Part shown: piece by piece, positions 27,416-36,102 of the stretch
Numbering within the stretch: position 1 is the first letter of the stretch
How the letters are laid out: each line of letters starts with the position of its first letter
NCBI GenBank assembly: GCA_012522575.1
Contig: JAAYKE010000063.1
Coordinates: forward strand, 1-45,024
Origin: Armatimonadota bacterium
Lineage (GTDB): Bacteria; Armatimonadota; UBA5829
Reading direction: 5' to 3'
DNA length: 45,024 nucleotides
The notes under the pieces: model-generated
What the model was told of the DNA's origin: nothing
Seen by the model: the letters and a program-made list of their open reading frames with translations, nothing else
Databases searched by the model: none
Position numbers and translations under genes: made by a program

Positions 27416-28084
27416 CTATTTTGCTTTCGCCGCCATTCTCTCCTGGCCATGCGGACAAAGTGGAACCAACGGACATATTTCACAGCGCGGAGTTGGGGCT
27501 TTGCATATCTGTCTACCATGAAACACTATGATGTGATTAAACTCCGTCATATTTTCCTCTGGAAGCAACTCACGCAAGTCCATTTCGATTTTCGTTGGGT
27601 CTTTGTGAGTCGTAAGCCCAAGGCGGCGTGAGATTCTGGTAACGTGGGTATCTACTATCACCGCAGGCCGGCCGTAGCATACGCCCACTATGAGGTTAGC
27701 GGTTTTCCGCCCTACTCCGCTCAGTTTGACCAGTTCATCAATCTCATCGGGAACCTGGCCGTGGTAGTCCTGCACCAGTTGGCGCGCAGATTCGATGATA
27801 GCCTTGGACTTGTTTCGAAAGAAGCCGGTGGGTCTGACGATCGCTTCGAGTTCGTCATAAATCGCCTCTGCGAAGGCTGCGACGTCGGGATACTTTGCAA
27901 ATAGCTCCGGCGTGACTCGATTGACTCGCTCGTCTGTGCATTGCGCTGCCAGTATGGCCGCAACCATAAGCTGATGGCAGGATTTGAAATCCAGCGAGCA
28001 GGTCGCGCCGGGATAAAGATCAGTTAATATCGCAATAATATCTTTGATTCGATCTTGTGGCAGTTCGAGGGATCTGTTTTTCAT
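27416..28084 (-). CDS. nth: Endonuclease III
   Basis: This 222-residue base-excision-repair enzyme removes oxidised pyrimidines and cuts the abasic strand. The helix-hairpin-helix LSGVGRKTAN carries the catalytic Lys127, Asp145 is in VDTHV, and the [4Fe-4S] cluster cysteines 194, 201, 204 and 210 have the exact C-x6-C-x2-C-x5-C spacing. ATG 28084 is chosen because it overlaps the stop of the upstream Cys-rich gene (ATGA), which indicates translational coupling, and because an AGG lies 5 bases before it. A GTG four codons earlier is possible. It is transcribed with the Cys-rich gene from a good promoter. Confidence 0.96.
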   Translation of the reverse strand: MKNRSLELPQDRIKDIIAILTDLYPGATCSLDFKSCHQLMVAAILAAQCTDERVNRVTPELFAKYPDVAAFAEAIYDELEAIVRPTGFFRNKSKAIIESARQLVQDYHGQVPDEIDELVKLSGVGRKTANLIVGVCYGRPAVIVDTHVTRISRRLGLTTHKDPTKIEMDLRELLPEENMTEFNHIIVFHGRQICKAPTPRCEICPLVPLCPHGQERMAAKAK

Positions 28085-28278
28085 TTCGACCTGCACTCAA
28101 TAAACGCGGCGAAGGAACGATCATAAGTCCTTTCGACATCGTCCGGGAAACAACACGCGGGCAATTCATTGCTGGCCAGATGATAATGCAAACACTCGCA
28201 GCACTTGCCGTGTCGCGAGCAGCCGGAATAGGTGCAGTTACACTTTTTGGAGTTCTCAGCAAGCCTTTCACAAGCCAT
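28081..28278 (-). CDS. Small cysteine-rich protein (DUF6485-like)
   Basis: This 65-residue protein contains ten cysteines, at positions 3, 13, 15, 20, 26, 27, 29, 42, 43 and 62. The core CNCTYSGCSRHGKCCECL followed by LPACCFPDDVERTYDRS fits the DUF6485 family of small cytosolic proteins, whose function is unknown. The cysteine pattern suggests metal or iron-sulfur binding. The start is secure: ATG 28278 with a perfect AGGAGG (minus strand, 28285-28290) 6 bases away. The stop overlaps the nth start (ATGA), so it is made together with endonuclease III. A role in metal supply or redox sensing for that [4Fe-4S] enzyme is speculative. Confidence 0.82.
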   Translation of the reverse strand: MACERLAENSKKCNCTYSGCSRHGKCCECLHYHLASNELPACCFPDDVERTYDRSFAAFIECRSK

Positions 28279-28386: not shown

Positions 28387-28415
28387 TTGACAGTGACTGC
28401 TGGCCGCCATATAAT
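28387..28415 (+). promoter_or_regulatory. Consensus sigma-70 promoter, plus strand
   Basis: TTGACA (28387-28392) and TATAAT (28410-28415) match the bacterial consensus perfectly, with the ideal 17-base spacing. It reads toward the small basic frame at 28449-28562 and into the 3' end of the convergent rad50 gene, so a short mRNA or a small RNA is expected from about 28422. Confidence 0.8.
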
Positions 28416-28572: not shown

Positions 28573-31026
28573 TTATTCAGACGGCGGTAGTAAGCCGGCT
28601 CCGATCGTGTCGATGGACATCGAGCGGTCAATGAGCTGGCTTGTTTTCTTCTGCTCGTCAAACTCCACCCACAGGCAGCTATCTACCATATCGTGAATCG
28701 ACTCGATGTGAGTGATAACGATTATCTGATCGAACCGATTCTTGAGGTTTTGCAGCAGACCAACCACGTTGTCGCGCCGCGTTTCATCCAGAGAGCCAAA
28801 CACCTCATCCAATACCAGCAGGGAATATGACTGCCCTGCCCGATCCGCTATCATCTGCGAAACCGCCAACCGCAGCGCCAGATTCACTATATCGTCTTCG
28901 CCGCCTGATATCACCGGCTTTAGCTCGCCGTCGTCCCGAATCATCGCGGAATAGCTCTCGCTTATCTCAAGGGTGTTATAACGGCCATCGGTCAGTTCGG
29001 CAAGCAGTTCGCTGGCGATCGACTCCAGTTCCGGGCGAATGCGATGATTGAGGTCCGCGCGCAATTTATCGAAAGATTTGGTGAGGGTCTCCAAATGAAG
29101 CCTTTCGGAGCGTTTGGTTTTCAGCATTGAATGCTTCGAACGATACTCCGATTCCTCGCGATCAACTTCCGCCAGGATAGCTCCCGCTGTCTTTACCTCT
29201 CCGCGCTGCTTTTCGACGTTCATCTTAGAGGTATTCAGTTGGTTGGATGCGGCTTCGAAATCCGCGCACAGCTTTTCGTGATCCTCTTTGGAAAATTTGA
29301 GCTCCGACTGAGCAGCCTCGGACTTCTCAATCTCCGATTTTCTGATCTTATATTGCTCGTTGAGGCCGGCAAGCTCGGTTTCTACAGCGCTTTGACGTTC
29401 CAGTTCCCCTTTCAATGCGTAATATTTGTCGCGGTCGGGCTGCAGGGATTGTTTCAAATCCTGCAACTGCTGATACAACTTTTCATCAAACCCGACCGGC
29501 AGCCCGGAGAGTTTTTCCTGCAGCGGAGTCAGCTTGGCGCTCTTATCGGAGTGATCCGCAAGCAGACGATTGTATTCCTTGACATCTGAATCCGCGTTTG
29601 ATTTTTCGGCGCGCAGCGTCTCTATTTGTGTCGCCAGCGCATCCCTTGCAGCAATAAGCTCCGTCAGTTCTTCGCCATCTCCTTTCGCCGCCAGGCTCTG
29701 TTGATCGGTCTCTTTAATACGGGCTGCAATTTCTGCCAACTGGGCATCGAAGTTGGCTATTACTGTCTGAAGCTCATCGGCGAGAGGTCGCTCGCAAGTC
29801 GGGCATTTGCCTTGCGGCCCTTCTTGCAGAATGCGGTTCTTTTTGCTTTCAAGCTCGCTTGATTGCTCATTTAGATGCTTGATTTTTGTCTGCAGCGAGT
29901 TTTGCAGCGCGATGCGGTCTCCTCGGCAGGCTTGTATCTTCGTCTCTGTCTGAGCGAGAGTGGTTTCGGCGGCTTGCAATGCGGCTTGAGCGCGAGTTTG
30001 TGCCTGGCCTGCATTGGAGAGCGTCTTTGCCTGCTTTGCCAGTTCGTCTATATCGTTTTTCAAGACGTCAATCTGCGCGGTCAGCCGCTGCCTGTCGCTC
30101 TCAAACCTGGCAAGCTCCTCCTGCTTTTTTAGCTCTTCGGCCTCCTTGCGGAACCCGGCAAGCCTGGTTTTGATCTTGTCATACTCATCTCGCTTTAGCC
30201 CTAGCGCCTTCAGTTCTTCCTTATATTTGGCAATTTGAGCCAGCAACCGGGTGGCATCGGTGTTGTCTATTTCGAGCCTGTGTGAGATTTCTTCAGCGCG
30301 TTTTGCTTTTTGATCCGACGCTTCTTTTAATGGTTTGAGCTTTTCGAGGGTCTGCTGCGATTTTTTCTGGTCGGCTTCGGCAGCCGCTAACAGTTCATTC
30401 GCCTTTTCCAGCGCGGCCTGCGCGTTCTTTTTGCGTTCTTTAAGCTCCTCCGGGTTGGGGAGGCCTTTTTCCAGCCCTGCAATCTCGCGATCCAGGCCGA
30501 GGCGATCCGCATTAGATTGTTCTCTGGCTTTGGTCAGGCGATCGTAGCCCAACATTCGACTGATTGCCGCTGCCCGCCCGCGTGGGTCCATCGATGCCAT
30601 AAACTCCAACTCTTTTTGAGCGGTGAAAAAGCTGGTGAAAAATGCCTGGTGATCCATTCCGAGGAGCTTAATAACAGCTTCGTCTACCTCTTTTGTCCCG
30701 GAACGAAGTGCGCGGCCATCGACATTGAGCACGGCATTACTGATGCTGGAGGCTGTAATGCTTCTCTCGACCTGATAATGCGTCCCCGCCAGTTCAAAAT
30801 CGAGCTTGACCATAGCTTTGGAGCCGCCGACAGCAGCGTGCGCCCTGACTGTATCGCTCCTGCCACGCAGAGCTTTGCTGCCATAAAGCGACCATCCGAT
30901 AGCCTCCAGAATGGTGGTTTTCCCGGCTCCGTTAGGGCCAACAATGCCGGTTACTCCCTCGGTAAAGTCAAGGGATGATGAAGTATACTGCCGAAAGTTA
31001 TGCATTTCCAGGTGTATGAGTTTCAC
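28573..31026 (-). CDS. rad50: Rad50/SbcC-type SMC ATPase
   Basis: This 817-residue ATPase of DNA double-strand-break repair holds DNA ends and controls the Mre11 nuclease. Walker A GIVGPNGAGKTT is at about 27-38, followed by Q-loop-type sequence and a long coiled coil. The zinc hook GKCPTCERPL is near 405-414, then the second coiled coil, the ABC signature VISGGEDDIVNLALRLAVS near 703, and Walker B LLVLDEVFGSLDE near 735. The start is GTG 31026, with GGAG 8 bases upstream and a GTGA overlap with the mre11 stop; the open frame continues further back only as a shadow within mre11. At 817 residues it is nearer to archaeal Rad50 than to E. coli SbcC (about 1050). It is the last gene of the nurA-herA-mre11-rad50 operon. 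Confidence 0.92.
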   Translation of the reverse strand: MKLIHLEMHNFRQYTSSSLDFTEGVTGIVGPNGAGKTTILEAIGWSLYGSKALRGRSDTVRAHAAVGGSKAMVKLDFELAGTHYQVERSITASSISNAVLNVDGRALRSGTKEVDEAVIKLLGMDHQAFFTSFFTAQKELEFMASMDPRGRAAAISRMLGYDRLTKAREQSNADRLGLDREIAGLEKGLPNPEELKERKKNAQAALEKANELLAAAEADQKKSQQTLEKLKPLKEASDQKAKRAEEISHRLEIDNTDATRLLAQIAKYKEELKALGLKRDEYDKIKTRLAGFRKEAEELKKQEELARFESDRQRLTAQIDVLKNDIDELAKQAKTLSNAGQAQTRAQAALQAAETTLAQTETKIQACRGDRIALQNSLQTKIKHLNEQSSELESKKNRILQEGPQGKCPTCERPLADELQTVIANFDAQLAEIAARIKETDQQSLAAKGDGEELTELIAARDALATQIETLRAEKSNADSDVKEYNRLLADHSDKSAKLTPLQEKLSGLPVGFDEKLYQQLQDLKQSLQPDRDKYYALKGELERQSAVETELAGLNEQYKIRKSEIEKSEAAQSELKFSKEDHEKLCADFEAASNQLNTSKMNVEKQRGEVKTAGAILAEVDREESEYRSKHSMLKTKRSERLHLETLTKSFDKLRADLNHRIRPELESIASELLAELTDGRYNTLEISESYSAMIRDDGELKPVISGGEDDIVNLALRLAVSQMIADRAGQSYSLLVLDEVFGSLDETRRDNVVGLLQNLKNRFDQIIVITHIESIHDMVDSCLWVEFDEQKKTSQLIDRSMSIDTIGAGLLPPSE

Positions 31027-32159
31027 GATGCACTCTCCTGTCGAGCGATGTAATCGCGTCCCAAATCCGTAAGCCGATCTCTGTCTACTCCGCCCGGAAC
31101 CTCGCAATCTCTGGCGAAATCGGCCCATTCATCCTCAAGTGATCTGGCTGTTCCAGCCTCTCGGCTGTCCGAGGATACGCCGGTTCTGGATGGGAGCCTG
31201 GTTTGCAGCTCGAAATGCAGCGCCTGAGTGCGAATTGAGCGAATAAATGCAAAGTCGAGGTCGGCCTGCACTCCGCGAGGCAGATTCTCTATTATCAGCC
31301 GAACAATCTTGTCAGCATGGCCGCCGTCGATGCCCTCAATTCGGTTCACAATCATCCGGTTCACCTCGTCCGCTGCCAGACCATCCGCATCTATCGGCCT
31401 GAGATCGACAACTTCTCGCGTGCTGACGTTGTGGAAAGAGATAAGCTTTCGATCGGCGATGTCGTATTCTATGAAGCCCTTTTTTGCTTTCGTTTCGCTC
31501 CACAGACTGGTCGATGTATATTCCAGTGAGCCTGCATAATAGGCGTTTGGAGCAAGCTCTGTGAATGAATGGTAATGGCCGAACGCGATATAATCCCAGT
31601 CATCTCGAATCACCTGTGATCGGCTCAATTGGTATAGGTCGCCGGCGTATTTCAGGACGCCCTCAACTGTGCCGTGCGCAAGCAGTATATTATGTTTGCT
31701 GGATGGGTCAGGTTCTATTTTAAGCGATGATATATGCGGCAGGGCGCGATGGCAAAGGCAGAACACTGAAGCGTCCAACTGATCGAGCTTGATCTGGAGA
31801 TATTCGCTGTGAGCAACGTGGATGCCGGGCAGGTTCTTCAGTAAATCGAGAATACAGCCTGTGTCTGCCGATCTCGGCGAGTCGTGATTGCCGCCGATTA
31901 TCACGGTGGGCGCAGTTATTTTTTGCGTGAGCGCGGCAAGTTCCCGGAATGAATATTGAATGGTCAGGTTGCTGGGACGCACAACATGAAACATATCCCC
32001 TGCTATCAAAACCAGATCGGGTTTCAGTTCGGCGGTTTTGTGTATCGCTTCACGAAACGCGAGGAATACGTCCGCTTCACGCATATTAAGGCCCTGTTTA
32101 TTGACGCGATTGTAGGCTCTGTAGCCCAAATGCGGGTCCGCTATGTGAATAACTCGCAT
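31023..32159 (-). CDS. mre11: Mre11/SbcD-type exonuclease
   Basis: This 378-residue dinuclear metallophosphoesterase nuclease processes DNA ends with Rad50. Phosphoesterase motifs are complete: DPHLG (8-12), GDMFH near 54-58, GGNHDSPRS near 94-102, LAHGT near 160, and GHYHSF near 196. The C-terminal capping and Rad50-binding region is present. It starts at ATG 32159, 3 bases after the herA stop, and overlaps the rad50 start, so all three are probably co-translated. It is named Mre11 here, and not SbcD, because of the HerA/NurA context; the enzyme family is the same. Confidence 0.93.
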   Translation of the reverse strand: MRVIHIADPHLGYRAYNRVNKQGLNMREADVFLAFREAIHKTAELKPDLVLIAGDMFHVVRPSNLTIQYSFRELAALTQKITAPTVIIGGNHDSPRSADTGCILDLLKNLPGIHVAHSEYLQIKLDQLDASVFCLCHRALPHISSLKIEPDPSSKHNILLAHGTVEGVLKYAGDLYQLSRSQVIRDDWDYIAFGHYHSFTELAPNAYYAGSLEYTSTSLWSETKAKKGFIEYDIADRKLISFHNVSTREVVDLRPIDADGLAADEVNRMIVNRIEGIDGGHADKIVRLIIENLPRGVQADLDFAFIRSIRTQALHFELQTRLPSRTGVSSDSREAGTARSLEDEWADFARDCEVPGGVDRDRLTDLGRDYIARQESAS

Positions 32160-32162
32160 CTT

Positions 32163-34133
32163 TTATATCCTCTCAAATGGGTCTACGTCATGGTCGACGC
32201 TCTGGATAACAACAGGAGCGGCGTCCGGAGTCGCGGCGATGTTGGCCTTTTTCTTTATAGAGTTGCGGAAGTATGCCACCGGGTCATCCGGGCGGCGCTG
32301 CAATGTCACGTGCATTGCGCGTTTGGTTTCCTCGTCATCGTCGGCGCTTGCTACTATGTCCTTTATCTCGTTTCTGCTCAAGTCCGGGTTCAGGGTGCAC
32401 AGATTTCGGTAGACAGCTTCATCCAGCGGCAGGTCATCAGCAGGAGGGAACATCTTGATCCCATCCGGCCCGCGCAACACGTTTGGCCGCGGGAATTTGA
32501 CAAATATCGGTTGGTTGAAATGCGGGTGGCGTATCATTAACTGCCCTTTGCTCAGAGTCGCCAGCTTCTCTTTTGTCGCCGAGGTCAGCACCTGATACCC
32601 GGGCGTAGCCAACTCGTCCATATCCATTCGCCCATACAGACACGTCGCCGAGTTGCCGACTACCCTCTTGTGCACCTGGCTTCGGAACTGCTGCGCCGAG
32701 AATAACACCAAGCCCAGATAGCGGCCACGCTCGGAAATATCTAGCAGGGTTTGTTTAAGATACGACTCCTGGCCATCGGAGGGCGCATATTTGTTGAGTT
32801 CGTCCACCACGACTATTACGTGCTTTACGCCCAGATTGCCCGCTTCGAGGTGTTCGCGCAGCTTGCTGACGACCCTTGTGAATACGAGGTCCTGAGCCTG
32901 CGCATCAAGCTTGGCGACGTCGATCACATAGACTCCTCTATCCTCAAAGGTTCCCCACGGCAGGTCCGAGGAATACTCATCCGGGCTTATCAACCCTTCA
33001 TACCGAGTGGACAAATTGGTCAGTCTGTTAAAGACCTTTCGGATAGTGGCGTAGTGGTGGGTTTTCCATTCGGTGCGGTTGCTCTCTTCCATTTCCCTCA
33101 GCACAGCATCGAACCAGGCGTTCAAGTGCTGGAAGTTGCGCACCTCGCATTCCTGTTCGCCGACCTTGCTGATCTGGCCTACTACCCGCTGCCTAATATA
33201 TTGAATAAGCGCATCGGCTTTGGCATCGACGTCGTCGCGGTTTAAGACAACCTCGGTATACTCCAATATATCCTGAAGTCCCCATGACAACGGCTTAACC
33301 GAGCCAATCAAATCAGGATGAGTGCGCAGCGTGTTAAGGTTTAGGCGGTCGAACTTATACGGAGCGTAGTAGTAAACCTTTTCAAACGGCTGACACGGCG
33401 TATTGAGCTTATCGTATTTTTCGATGTCTTCGACCGGTATTTCCTGTATATTATTGTCTATGTATAACTGCTTATACTTATACTCTTCGGGAGGGCTTGC
33501 GGGAAAATCCAGGAAGAGCATGTCGCAGCCCTTGACGTTGAAACACACAACAGCCACATCCTCTCGAAAATGAGAAAAGATGCTCTGAAGGACAAACTCT
33601 ATCGAGGAAGTCTTGGTAGCAAGGCCGGATACGCCGGTAATATTCAAGTGAGCGGCTTCAGGGCCTAATAGAAATTCAGAATCGAGATATACCGGGGAGA
33701 GCAGGTCGCCGTTCTGGTAAAGACCAACCGGAATCTCTGATTTGCCGACATAGGCATCCATCCGCAGAGCGCGCGCAACGGCAACATCATCAGCCAGATA
33801 AACCGGGCCAACAGGGACAGGCTGCAGCGGTTCCTCCGGCTCGACGCGCAAGACCGCCGCTGAATAGAGCTTGATTTCCGGCCTGAGCGTGGGCGGCTCG
33901 GTGTTAGGATCCCCCTCGGAGCCTATATAATCGTGCAGAGGTGAGCCGAGGTCGGTGAAGCCAAAACCTTCGACGACCACGCCAAACACCTCGACATTCT
34001 CCGTCCTTACAACCACCAGTGTCCCGATCCCGACCTTGGAATCGTCCGCGGTCCAGAAGCTGAAACTGTAGGCGGTGCTCGGCTTTGCCTCCGTTGCAAC
34101 TACTCGTCCAATCGGCAGTGTATCGTTTTGCAT
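32163..34133 (-). CDS. herA: HerA-like DNA translocase ATPase
   Basis: This 656-residue ATPase belongs to the HerA/FtsK superfamily. An N-terminal HAS-barrel-like region (about 1-60) is followed by the RecA-like domain. The phosphate loop is unusual: ITGVSGLATKTSS (165-177) replaces GxxGxGK[ST], with one extra residue and Thr instead of Gly before the Lys. Walker B VIVVVDELNKYAP is near 440, and SERGRYLGLVLFSAQQFRS near 470-490 fits the sensor and arginine region. HerA forms hexamers that pump DNA and drive the NurA nuclease in end resection. It lies 17 bases after nurA and 3 bases before mre11. Family identity is strong. Confidence 0.88.
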   Translation of the reverse strand: MQNDTLPIGRVVATEAKPSTAYSFSFWTADDSKVGIGTLVVVRTENVEVFGVVVEGFGFTDLGSPLHDYIGSEGDPNTEPPTLRPEIKLYSAAVLRVEPEEPLQPVPVGPVYLADDVAVARALRMDAYVGKSEIPVGLYQNGDLLSPVYLDSEFLLGPEAAHLNITGVSGLATKTSSIEFVLQSIFSHFREDVAVVCFNVKGCDMLFLDFPASPPEEYKYKQLYIDNNIQEIPVEDIEKYDKLNTPCQPFEKVYYYAPYKFDRLNLNTLRTHPDLIGSVKPLSWGLQDILEYTEVVLNRDDVDAKADALIQYIRQRVVGQISKVGEQECEVRNFQHLNAWFDAVLREMEESNRTEWKTHHYATIRKVFNRLTNLSTRYEGLISPDEYSSDLPWGTFEDRGVYVIDVAKLDAQAQDLVFTRVVSKLREHLEAGNLGVKHVIVVVDELNKYAPSDGQESYLKQTLLDISERGRYLGLVLFSAQQFRSQVHKRVVGNSATCLYGRMDMDELATPGYQVLTSATKEKLATLSKGQLMIRHPHFNQPIFVKFPRPNVLRGPDGIKMFPPADDLPLDEAVYRNLCTLNPDLSRNEIKDIVASADDDEETKRAMHVTLQRRPDDPVAYFRNSIKKKANIAATPDAAPVVIQSVDHDVDPFERI

Positions 34134-34150
34134 GGTTTATCTCCAGTTAA

Positions 34151-35167
34151 TCACTCGCTGGCGGCTATTGCGCTCAATCTCATCAGTTGCGCATCCAGGC
34201 TGGTATGCGATGGCGCCAGGCTCTTCATATACAGTTCGCAATCGCGAATAGGGTAGATCATTTTATCCCAACGCGAGTCTGGCAGGCTCAGCGGCGCACG
34301 CTCAGCAAGCAGCCATCGGGATATTTCGTCGACCATATCCAATGCGCGGGAACTGCGGGGAATCTCGACTCTTATGAGGCCAAAATATGGGTCCTTGCCT
34401 TCGCTGGGGTGCATTCTCAGATACCAGCTACAAACTGGGCGACGGCCGCCCTTGACAATAGGCACGAATGCGCTGCTCCGCTCACCGGGCTTGAGAGCCA
34501 GAGCCACCTGCTGTTCCTCCCAGGTCAGATATTGCGTCGAGTGGCTTTTGGTCACGCCTGCGATGTCGGCCTCGCCATAATCCGCTTGAAGCGAACCATC
34601 CACCAACAGCCAGCCGTCACAAGGCGGCCGCGATACCCACTCCGATGCAATTTTGCTTTCCAGTCGTCCTCGAACCGTGCTTATCTTATCGTGTGCCGCC
34701 TGCGCCAGAGCAAGCGGGTGCTCGATGGCGTCAACGTCGCCCGTATCCACAACCGTCACGCCGGATATCTCAATTCCGTGCTGCTGAGCTATCTTTTTTG
34801 GCAGATACAGCGCCTCGTCGACTACGTGAAAGCCAGGCAGGGTGCGCATTTTTTTATCAGACCCTCTTGTGCGAATCACGGCGGCGATATACCCATAGAG
34901 AATCGGTACCGGGGAATTGATATAGATCGGGCCGCGGGGACGCTGCATGCCGTCCATAAAACAAGTGAAACCGCCGGCAGTTGGAACCCCGACCTGGTGA
35001 GCGCAGACTTTCTCATCTTCGAAGAGATCGCGGTCGGCCTGAGTTGCCTCGGCATCTGCGCGCATTGGAGGATCACCGGCAAGAGACGCCTGAGCAAGCG
35101 CAACGCGCACGTCGACTTTCGGCAGAGTGCGTATGTAGGCTTCCAGATTGCCAAGCAGATCGCCCAA
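34151..35167 (-). CDS. nurA: NurA-domain nuclease
   Basis: This protein of about 338 residues resembles the NurA 5'-3' nuclease that works with HerA. RNase H-like acidic sites are visible in TCFMDGMQR, GWLLVDGSLQ and DPYFGLIRVEIP, and the C-terminal NurA helices are present. The open frame reaches ATG 35233, but a good promoter (35198-35227) lies within that extension and would place the RNA start near 35190. TTG 35167, with AGGGG 7 bases upstream, is therefore the likelier start. It is first in the operon nurA-herA-mre11-rad50. The family is divergent and assignment rests on these motifs plus the adjacent herA. Confidence 0.8.
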   Translation of the reverse strand: MGDLLGNLEAYIRTLPKVDVRVALAQASLAGDPPMRADAEATQADRDLFEDEKVCAHQVGVPTAGGFTCFMDGMQRPRGPIYINSPVPILYGYIAAVIRTRGSDKKMRTLPGFHVVDEALYLPKKIAQQHGIEISGVTVVDTGDVDAIEHPLALAQAAHDKISTVRGRLESKIASEWVSRPPCDGWLLVDGSLQADYGEADIAGVTKSHSTQYLTWEEQQVALALKPGERSSAFVPIVKGGRRPVCSWYLRMHPSEGKDPYFGLIRVEIPRSSRALDMVDEISRWLLAERAPLSLPDSRWDKMIYPIRDCELYMKSLAPSHTSLDAQLMRLSAIAASE

Positions 35168-35197
35168 GTGAGGTCCCCTTCGCCCAGTAGCAGCTAG

Positions 35198-35227
35198 AAT
35201 ATAACACCTCCTGCTCGGCAATGTCAA
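35198..35227 (-). promoter_or_regulatory. Promoter of the nurA-herA-mre11-rad50 operon
   Basis: On the minus strand TTGACA (35227-35222) is followed after 18 bases by TATATT (35203-35198), or after 17 bases by TTATAT. The AGGAGG inside the spacer looks like a ribosome site but would lie upstream of the transcript. The promoter decides the nurA start in favour of TTG 35167. Confidence 0.65.
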
Positions 35228-35284: not shown

Positions 35285-35314
35285 TTGAGTACCGGGAGAT
35301 TGCGGCGATATAAT
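35285..35314 (+). promoter_or_regulatory. Promoter of the sirtuin gene
   Basis: TTGAGT (35285-35290) and a perfect TATAAT (35309-35314) are 18 bases apart. The expected transcription start (about 35321) is only a base or two before ATG 35323, so the mRNA would be leaderless. The gap between this promoter and the divergent nurA promoter is about 58 bases, allowing shared control. Confidence 0.6.
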
Positions 35315-35322
35315 TGAAGTTG

Positions 35323-36102
35323 ATGACGCACAAAATAGACGAATTAGTTGACGCTTTCGCCAACGCCAGAAGCGTATTTGTCTTTACCGGCGCAGGGGCG
35401 AGCAAGGAATCGGGTCTGCCTACTTTTCGCGAGATCGACGGCGAGTGGAATCAATACGACCCTATGACCTATGCCACCCTCGATGGATTTCTGAGCGAGC
35501 CGGTGCGGGTTTGGAATATGTACCGCCTCAGGCAGCGACAGATCGGCGATGCGCAGCCCAATGCCGCTCATATTGTCATCGCTCAGATGGAGAGCCGCTA
35601 CCCGCATTTTCTGCTGACCACACAAAACGTAGACGACCTCCACGAGCGTGCGGGTTCGCGAAAAATGGTGAAAATCCACGGGGATTGCTGGGGGATGCGA
35701 TGCATGCATTGCAGCGAGGTTTTCGACACGCGTGAGTTTTCGCTTCCCGATGAATTCACCTCCGAAACGCTGCCAAGATGTCCGCATTGTGAGGTATTGT
35801 GCCGGCCAAACATCGTATGGTTTGGGGAATTTGTGCCTGATGAAGCTATGTTCGCCTCTATCGAAAGAGCTTCGAGCTGCGATGTGATGCTGGTGGTGGG
35901 AACATCCGGCGAAGTATCGGGGGGATATGGTTTTGTTGAGCGGGCAAGTATGCACGGCGCGACTATCGTCGAAATCAACCCTACCGAAGGCATCCTTACC
36001 CAGCACGCCCACCTGTGGATACCGGAACCTGCCGGAGTCGCATTGCCTAAGTTATGGCAATCTCTTACGGGACTAGGCAGGAATTCACTTCCGCCTGCTT
36101 AA
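35323..36102 (+). CDS. NAD-dependent protein deacylase (Sir2/CobB type)
   Basis: This 259-residue sirtuin removes acyl groups from lysine with consumption of NAD. It has the NAD-binding FTGAGASKESGLPTFR (21-36), TQNVDDLHERAG near 100, catalytic His in KIHGD, two zinc cysteine pairs (CMHC and CPHC), and VWFGE. A complete zinc module and normal length mark it as an enzyme of the CobB class and not the NADase Sir2 of anti-phage systems. ATG 35323 is chosen because the predicted transcript starts there; TTG 35314 overlaps the -10 box and cannot be used. It is divergent from the resection operon. Confidence 0.93.
   Translation: MTHKIDELVDAFANARSVFVFTGAGASKESGLPTFREIDGEWNQYDPMTYATLDGFLSEPVRVWNMYRLRQRQIGDAQPNAAHIVIAQMESRYPHFLLTTQNVDDLHERAGSRKMVKIHGDCWGMRCMHCSEVFDTREFSLPDEFTSETLPRCPHCEVLCRPNIVWFGEFVPDEAMFASIERASSCDVMLVVGTSGEVSGGYGFVERASMHGATIVEINPTEGILTQHAHLWIPEPAGVALPKLWQSLTGLGRNSLPPA

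Follow-up and report, generated by a model that had tools for sequence, protein, structure and literature searches.

In Sulfolobus islandicus the HerA, Mre11, Rad50 and NurA activities are encoded in a single operon, and all four genes are essential (PMC4351679). In bacteria the role of NurA-HerA is disputed because Deinococcus mutants show mild or opposite phenotypes, and it has been left open whether SbcCD (Mre11-Rad50) is tied to HerA-NurA (PMC4663267). Each of the component families is already known, as is the four-gene operon of archaea. Here we describe a four-gene operon of this kind in a bacterium. The window (the whole stretch of DNA analysed, 45,024 nucleotides) is contig C20 (JAAYKE010000063.1) of a 3.06-Mb Armatimonadota genome (GCA_012522575.1; 189 contigs, estimated 100% complete). 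We consider that its nurA, herA, mre11 and rad50 genes probably encode a chromosomal machine that resects double-strand breaks and, in this lineage, takes over the task of RecBCD/AddAB. The searchable open literature yielded no bacterial four-gene operon, no account of its joint inheritance and no link to missing AddAB/RecBCD, a weak negative since subscription journals lie mostly outside that literature.

The four genes lie on the minus strand in the order nurA, herA, mre11, rad50. All are intact and, as given in the original prediction made from the sequence alone, they run in one direction with intergenic gaps of 17, 3 and -4 bases; the predicted coordinates also stand, except for the start of nurA, which is TTG 35167.

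nurA (34151..35167, minus strand) encodes a bacterial-type NurA nuclease of 338 amino acids, whose TTG start is residue 23 of the first translation, P0001; residue numbers below are those of P0001. The protein has no Pfam or NCBIfam match and does not reach the cut-off of the Pfam NurA model (PF09376). This model matches only 4 of 21 NurA relatives, and these weakly (best E 0.0024): it misses a divergent branch of the Deinococcus radiodurans NurA (DrNurA) type, which limits the Pfam label and not the homology. A family profile (A1) derived from the 21 relatives matches Thermotoga maritima NurA (1zup, 1.1e-5) and DrNurA (7f6d, 1.2e-3). The AlphaFold (AF2) model (predicted local distance difference test, pLDDT, 85) gives fold matches to 7f6d_G (1.2e-12), 1zup (8e-11) and Sulfolobus solfataricus NurA (2ygk, 2.2e-6), and to no other fold family at E below 0.001. 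The motifs F-x-DG (D94) and D212-G and the residue K229 are invariant. D94 and D212 align with the FVDG and KDG motifs of 1zup, and K229 with DrNurA K201, which is required for nuclease activity (PMC9960219). By profile and predicted fold, this NurA is closest to the Deinococcus and Thermotoga proteins, not to the archaeal ones. Two further NurA genes, of the type recognised by Pfam, occur elsewhere in the genome, on contigs C65 (L058:10229-11910) and C140 (L059:128-4887). That on C140 comes after a HerA with a canonical Walker A motif and has a DNA methyltransferase immediately behind it, an arrangement suggestive of a restriction- or defence-like system.

herA (32163..34133, minus strand; 656 amino acids) encodes a hexameric DNA translocase of the D. 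radiodurans (DrHerA) type, with a HAS barrel, a RecA-like domain, a Walker A Lys-Thr and a Walker B Asp-Glu. Its Pfam score is 18.1 bits, under the 23.2-bit cut-off. In a sequence search of the PDB it matches DrHerA (7f6d_B) at 8.1e-46, and archaeal HerA in the PDB gives no detectable match at E up to 10. The window protein and DrHerA have in common an unusual P-loop, GxSGxATKTS (GVSGLATKTS here, GISGVATKTS in DrHerA). Foldseek places the predicted model first with DrHerA (7wrw, 1.5e-34) and then with the Thermococcus kodakarensis and S. solfataricus proteins. The residues K174/T175 and D444/E445 are invariant and align with DrHerA K175/T176/D487/E488 (PMC9960219). HerA, too, is of bacterial type, closest to the Deinococcus protein and not to those of archaea. 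Profile searches, proposed as a check on NurA and HerA, leave both below the Pfam cut-offs, whereas family profiles and predicted folds place both in their families.

mre11 (SbcD; 31023..32159, minus strand; 378 amino acids) encodes a metallophosphoesterase nuclease (PF00149, 7e-13) whose nearest solved structure is Methanocaldococcus jannaschii Mre11 (5e-15). It carries the D-x-H, GD, GNH, H and GHxH motifs, and D8, H10, D55, N91, H92, H162 and H197 are invariant across the family. rad50 (28573..31026, minus strand) starts at a GTG, overlaps the mre11 stop by 4 bases and encodes an ABC-type ATPase (PRK03918 of NCBIfam, 1.5e-61; M. jannaschii Rad50, 1e-29) containing a coiled coil with a CxxC zinc hook, here CPTC. 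The Walker A K36, hook C408/C411, signature S707-GGE and Walker B D740-E741 are invariant. At 817 amino acids it is of the short archaeal/Thermotoga length, as had been noticed. Active-site residues are conserved in all four proteins. The set is complete and probably working, in line with the original prediction. A search for a second SbcD in the genome gave nothing over the cut-off; for a second SbcCD, a weak 452-amino-acid match on contig C88 was the only one.

A scan for HerA, using one genome per species and organism names as in the records, identified 55 loci, which fall in Armatimonadota, Gemmatimonadota, Gastranaerophilales/Melainabacteria and some cyanobacteria. Armatimonadota provide the closest relatives (82% HerA identity in L051). 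In all 23 loci with four full-length genes (19 of them distinct), found in Armatimonadota, Gemmatimonadota and Gastranaerophilales, the order is nurA-herA-mre11-rad50 on one strand, and a chance arrangement is excluded because order and strand are identical throughout. The set is thus present in at least three bacterial lineages, and its description as occurring 'in a bacterium' was an understatement. Some cyanobacterial loci, L032, L033 and L035 among them, carry herA without the other three genes adjacent. Extra genes separate nurA from herA, or herA from mre11, in some four-gene loci. For example, one relative (L066:3533-8963) has a DUF4365 gene in the first position and a KAP NTPase/LRR gene in the second, and the operon may be a target for insertions.

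The four proteins have been inherited together. Their trees, which took in no archaeal sequences, give distance correlations of 0.91-0.98; those of HerA and Rad50 have all 16 of 16 internal splits in common, and those of NurA and HerA 12 of 16. The trees agree, and do not point to four unrelated bacterial lineages, an outcome that, together with a normal AddAB/RecBCD in the genome, had been named beforehand as refuting the proposal. In 121 genomes of the phylum we found strong HerA in 23, NurA in 23, operon-type Mre11 in 24 and Rad50 in 25, and all four components in 20 of the 26 genomes having any. HerA and operon-type Mre11 occur together in 21 genomes and are both missing from 95; three have Mre11 only and two HerA only, the latter being drafts (80 and 85% complete). 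Fisher p-values for this co-occurrence, which ignore phylogeny, are 3e-18 and, counted by family, 4e-6. It persists in families f7, f5 and f15, where the NurA-HerA and Mre11-Rad50 pairs are unlinked (on different contigs or distant), and this co-occurrence, unlinked genomes included, is the strongest sign of a joint function of the four proteins.

A search for AddAB/RecBCD elsewhere in the genome had been suggested as a check. Using UvrD_C and PDDEXK_1, we found no AddA, RecB or AdnAB in the 189-contig draft: there is one UvrD_C protein, of UvrD/PcrA size (724 amino acids), and PDDEXK_1 occurs only in frames of 298, 312 and 191 amino acids. RecO is present. In the family to which the genome belongs, six of eight genomes have the four-gene set and only weak AddA matches. 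The other two, forming genus g3, have no NurA, HerA, Mre11 or Rad50 of the operon type and carry RecB-like helicase-nucleases of 1214 and 1350 amino acids, one of which adjoins a RecC-like protein. This looks like a swap of one system for the other, in a single event. Across the phylum AddA is missing from seven of eight genomes with a linked operon compared with three of 13 in which the pairs are unlinked (p 0.008, not corrected for phylogeny). A clean phylum-wide exclusion of AddAB by the four-gene set was also tested for and not found; it holds in this family only. Outside the window genome the AddA profile is an incomplete test, since genome G111 scores as AddA-negative yet has a PDDEXK_1 protein of about 1071 amino acids beside mre11. 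In that genome mre11-rad50 (L094:5895-12682) is unlinked to nurA-herA and divergent from the 1071-amino-acid protein, whose N-terminal sequence is UvrD-like; the latter is a possible AdnA-like partner.

The operon has a predicted promoter at 35198..35227 (minus strand; a consensus match only): TTGACA (35227-35222), an 18-base spacer and TG-n-TATATT ending at 35198, i.e. an extended -10 with TG ahead of it, with 11 of 12 consensus matches. The four genes are presumably co-transcribed. A putative ribosome-binding site, AAGGGGA (35174..35180, minus strand), lies about 7 bases before TTG 35167, and the equivalent codon is the nurA start in the closest relative, L051. We take this TTG as the start because it fits the promoter, the AAGGGGA site and the L051 start. 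The alternatives ATG 35233 and TTG 35227 were rejected: they begin upstream of or on the promoter, which overlaps the first codons of the longer reading, and translation must therefore begin downstream. Residues 1-22 of P0001, specific to the longer form, are a low-confidence part of the AlphaFold model. The operon probably ends with rad50, as the next open reading frame (ORF) has its own promoter-like site. This ORF (28081-28278, minus strand), between rad50 and nth, encodes 65 amino acids rich in cysteine (motifs CNC, CSRHGKCCEC and CC) and has an AGGAGG ribosome site and a promoter-like site at 28344-28316. A perfect consensus promoter, TTGACA-17-TATAAT (28387-28415, plus strand), is aimed at the 3' end of rad50 (antisense). 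Rfam gave no match in the window. On the other side, divergent from nurA, is a CobB-type sirtuin gene (35314..36102, plus strand; PF02146, 7e-46), a conserved neighbour that may or may not belong to the system. In most relatives within the family (L004, L008, L009, L053, L066 and L067) the sirtuin gene immediately precedes nurA and has its orientation, and the segment seems to be inverted in the genus of the window.

The four-gene set is most likely the main end-resection machinery of the window genome. From Deinococcus structures and assays (PMC9960219) and Sulfolobus genetics (PMC4351679), we propose that the proteins would act as a complex in which a Mre11-Rad50 dimer attaches to the broken end, opens it and cleans or nicks it. 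A ring of six HerA subunits would then form on the duplex and, by ATP hydrolysis, pull it into a NurA dimer, which would cut the 5' strand. The remaining 3' strand would be passed to RecA, loaded by RecFOR, for recombination.

Several observations weigh against this proposal. D. radiodurans without NurA-HerA is mildly affected or even tolerates damage better (PMC9960219), and the T. kodakarensis HerA-NurA pair, for which antiviral defence has been suggested, cuts both strands (PMC12977600). As the genome is a 189-contig draft, the absence of AddAB is not absolute, and an AddA-like protein is present in 11 of the 23 strong HerA genomes, including an entire genus (f7) and G095, which has a linked operon. 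In addition, two pore arginines that serve translocation in DrHerA, R495 and R552 (a detail of that protein and not a hallmark of the family), are S452 and T510 here in a single pairwise alignment. This HerA may grip DNA differently from DrHerA, or other basic residues may replace the arginines. A wider claim is more tentative, and we hold it as a serious possibility short of an expectation: that some Armatimonadota have, in place of AddAB/RecBCD, no dedicated end-resection machine other than an ancient bacterial NurA-HerA-Mre11-Rad50 module passed down vertically, which would show that NurA-HerA of bacteria acts jointly with Mre11-Rad50 (SbcCD), a connection that studies of Deinococcus had not settled.

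The alternative that survives best, which we nevertheless think unlikely, is that the NurA-HerA half is a nuclease degrading phage or plasmid DNA that lies by chance beside a housekeeping Mre11-Rad50 (SbcDC). HerA has known partners in the Sir2-HerA and DUF4297-HerA defence systems, the T. kodakarensis pair degrades both strands (PMC12977600), a sirtuin gene is conserved beside the operon, and two other NurA-HerA pairs in the genome look like defence loci, one of them beside a DNA methyltransferase. However, the window HerA has weak PADLOC scores, and the sirtuin next to the operon, which PADLOC does not match, is an ordinary deacetylase of the Zn type (PF02146), for which reason a sirtuin-HerA defence system was rejected. 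The locus is chromosomal, occurs in six of eight family members and has four congruent trees, unlike patchy defence islands, and the co-occurrence with operon-type Mre11-Rad50 persists when the pairs are unlinked.

We also consider it quite unlikely that the set serves as a backup, or in replication-fork or chromosome-segregation functions (HerA is a relative of FtsK), and is not the main route of break resection. The mild phenotypes in Deinococcus and Thermus (PMC9960219) and the several genomes of the phylum with both the four-gene set and AddAB are in its favour, but no RecB/AddA was found in the window genome, and genus g3 exchanges the set for RecB/RecC-like proteins as a shared role predicts, albeit in one replacement event. 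Recent transfer of an archaeal operon, one of the two origins first offered (ancient retention being the other), is very improbable in spite of the single operon in Sulfolobus (PMC4351679) and the best scores of Rad50 and Mre11 among solved structures being against M. jannaschii, since HerA and NurA belong to the Deinococcus/Thermotoga type, the relatives found are bacterial and cluster by bacterial phylum, and among plasmid-borne full-length Rad50 relatives the best come from bacteria (Arcobacter, 241 bits, compared with about 80-94 bits for haloarchaea). The set may instead have been kept since ancient times or have passed from one phylum to another.

In several phyla the two pairs share an operon and are inherited together as one set, and the search of the window genome yielded no AddAB/RecBCD. 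This provides a natural system for testing whether NurA-HerA-Mre11-Rad50 resection alone can serve a bacterium, and bears on whether archaeal-style resection led by Mre11-Rad50 is older or wider than thought. Pfam cut-offs also conceal this branch of NurA and HerA from annotation.

Compared with described systems, D. radiodurans NurA-HerA (7f6d, 7wrw, 7wrx; PMC9960219) has the closest fold for both proteins and the closest solved HerA sequence. The unusual HerA P-loop, the HerA Walker residues and the catalytic lysine of NurA are conserved. In contrast, the pair described here shares an operon with Mre11 and Rad50, its NurA shares just 16% identity with DrNurA when the structures are aligned, and the DrHerA pore arginines align with other residues. 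The archaeal operon (herA-mre11-rad50-nurA) combines the same four activities, with nurA last instead of first. Its HerA and NurA are far diverged from those of the window (14% identity for HerA by structure alignment), and downstream of resection it has RadA where the bacterium has RecA/RecFOR. Bacterial SbcCD and Thermotoga Mre11-Rad50 have a similar Mre11 active site, Rad50 head and zinc hook; unlike SbcCD, the window Rad50 is shorter (817 compared with 1048 amino acids for Escherichia coli SbcC) and its inheritance is tied to NurA-HerA. With AddAB/RecBCD there is no homology: the presumed common task is processive end resection for recombination, and in the sister genus one system has apparently replaced the other.

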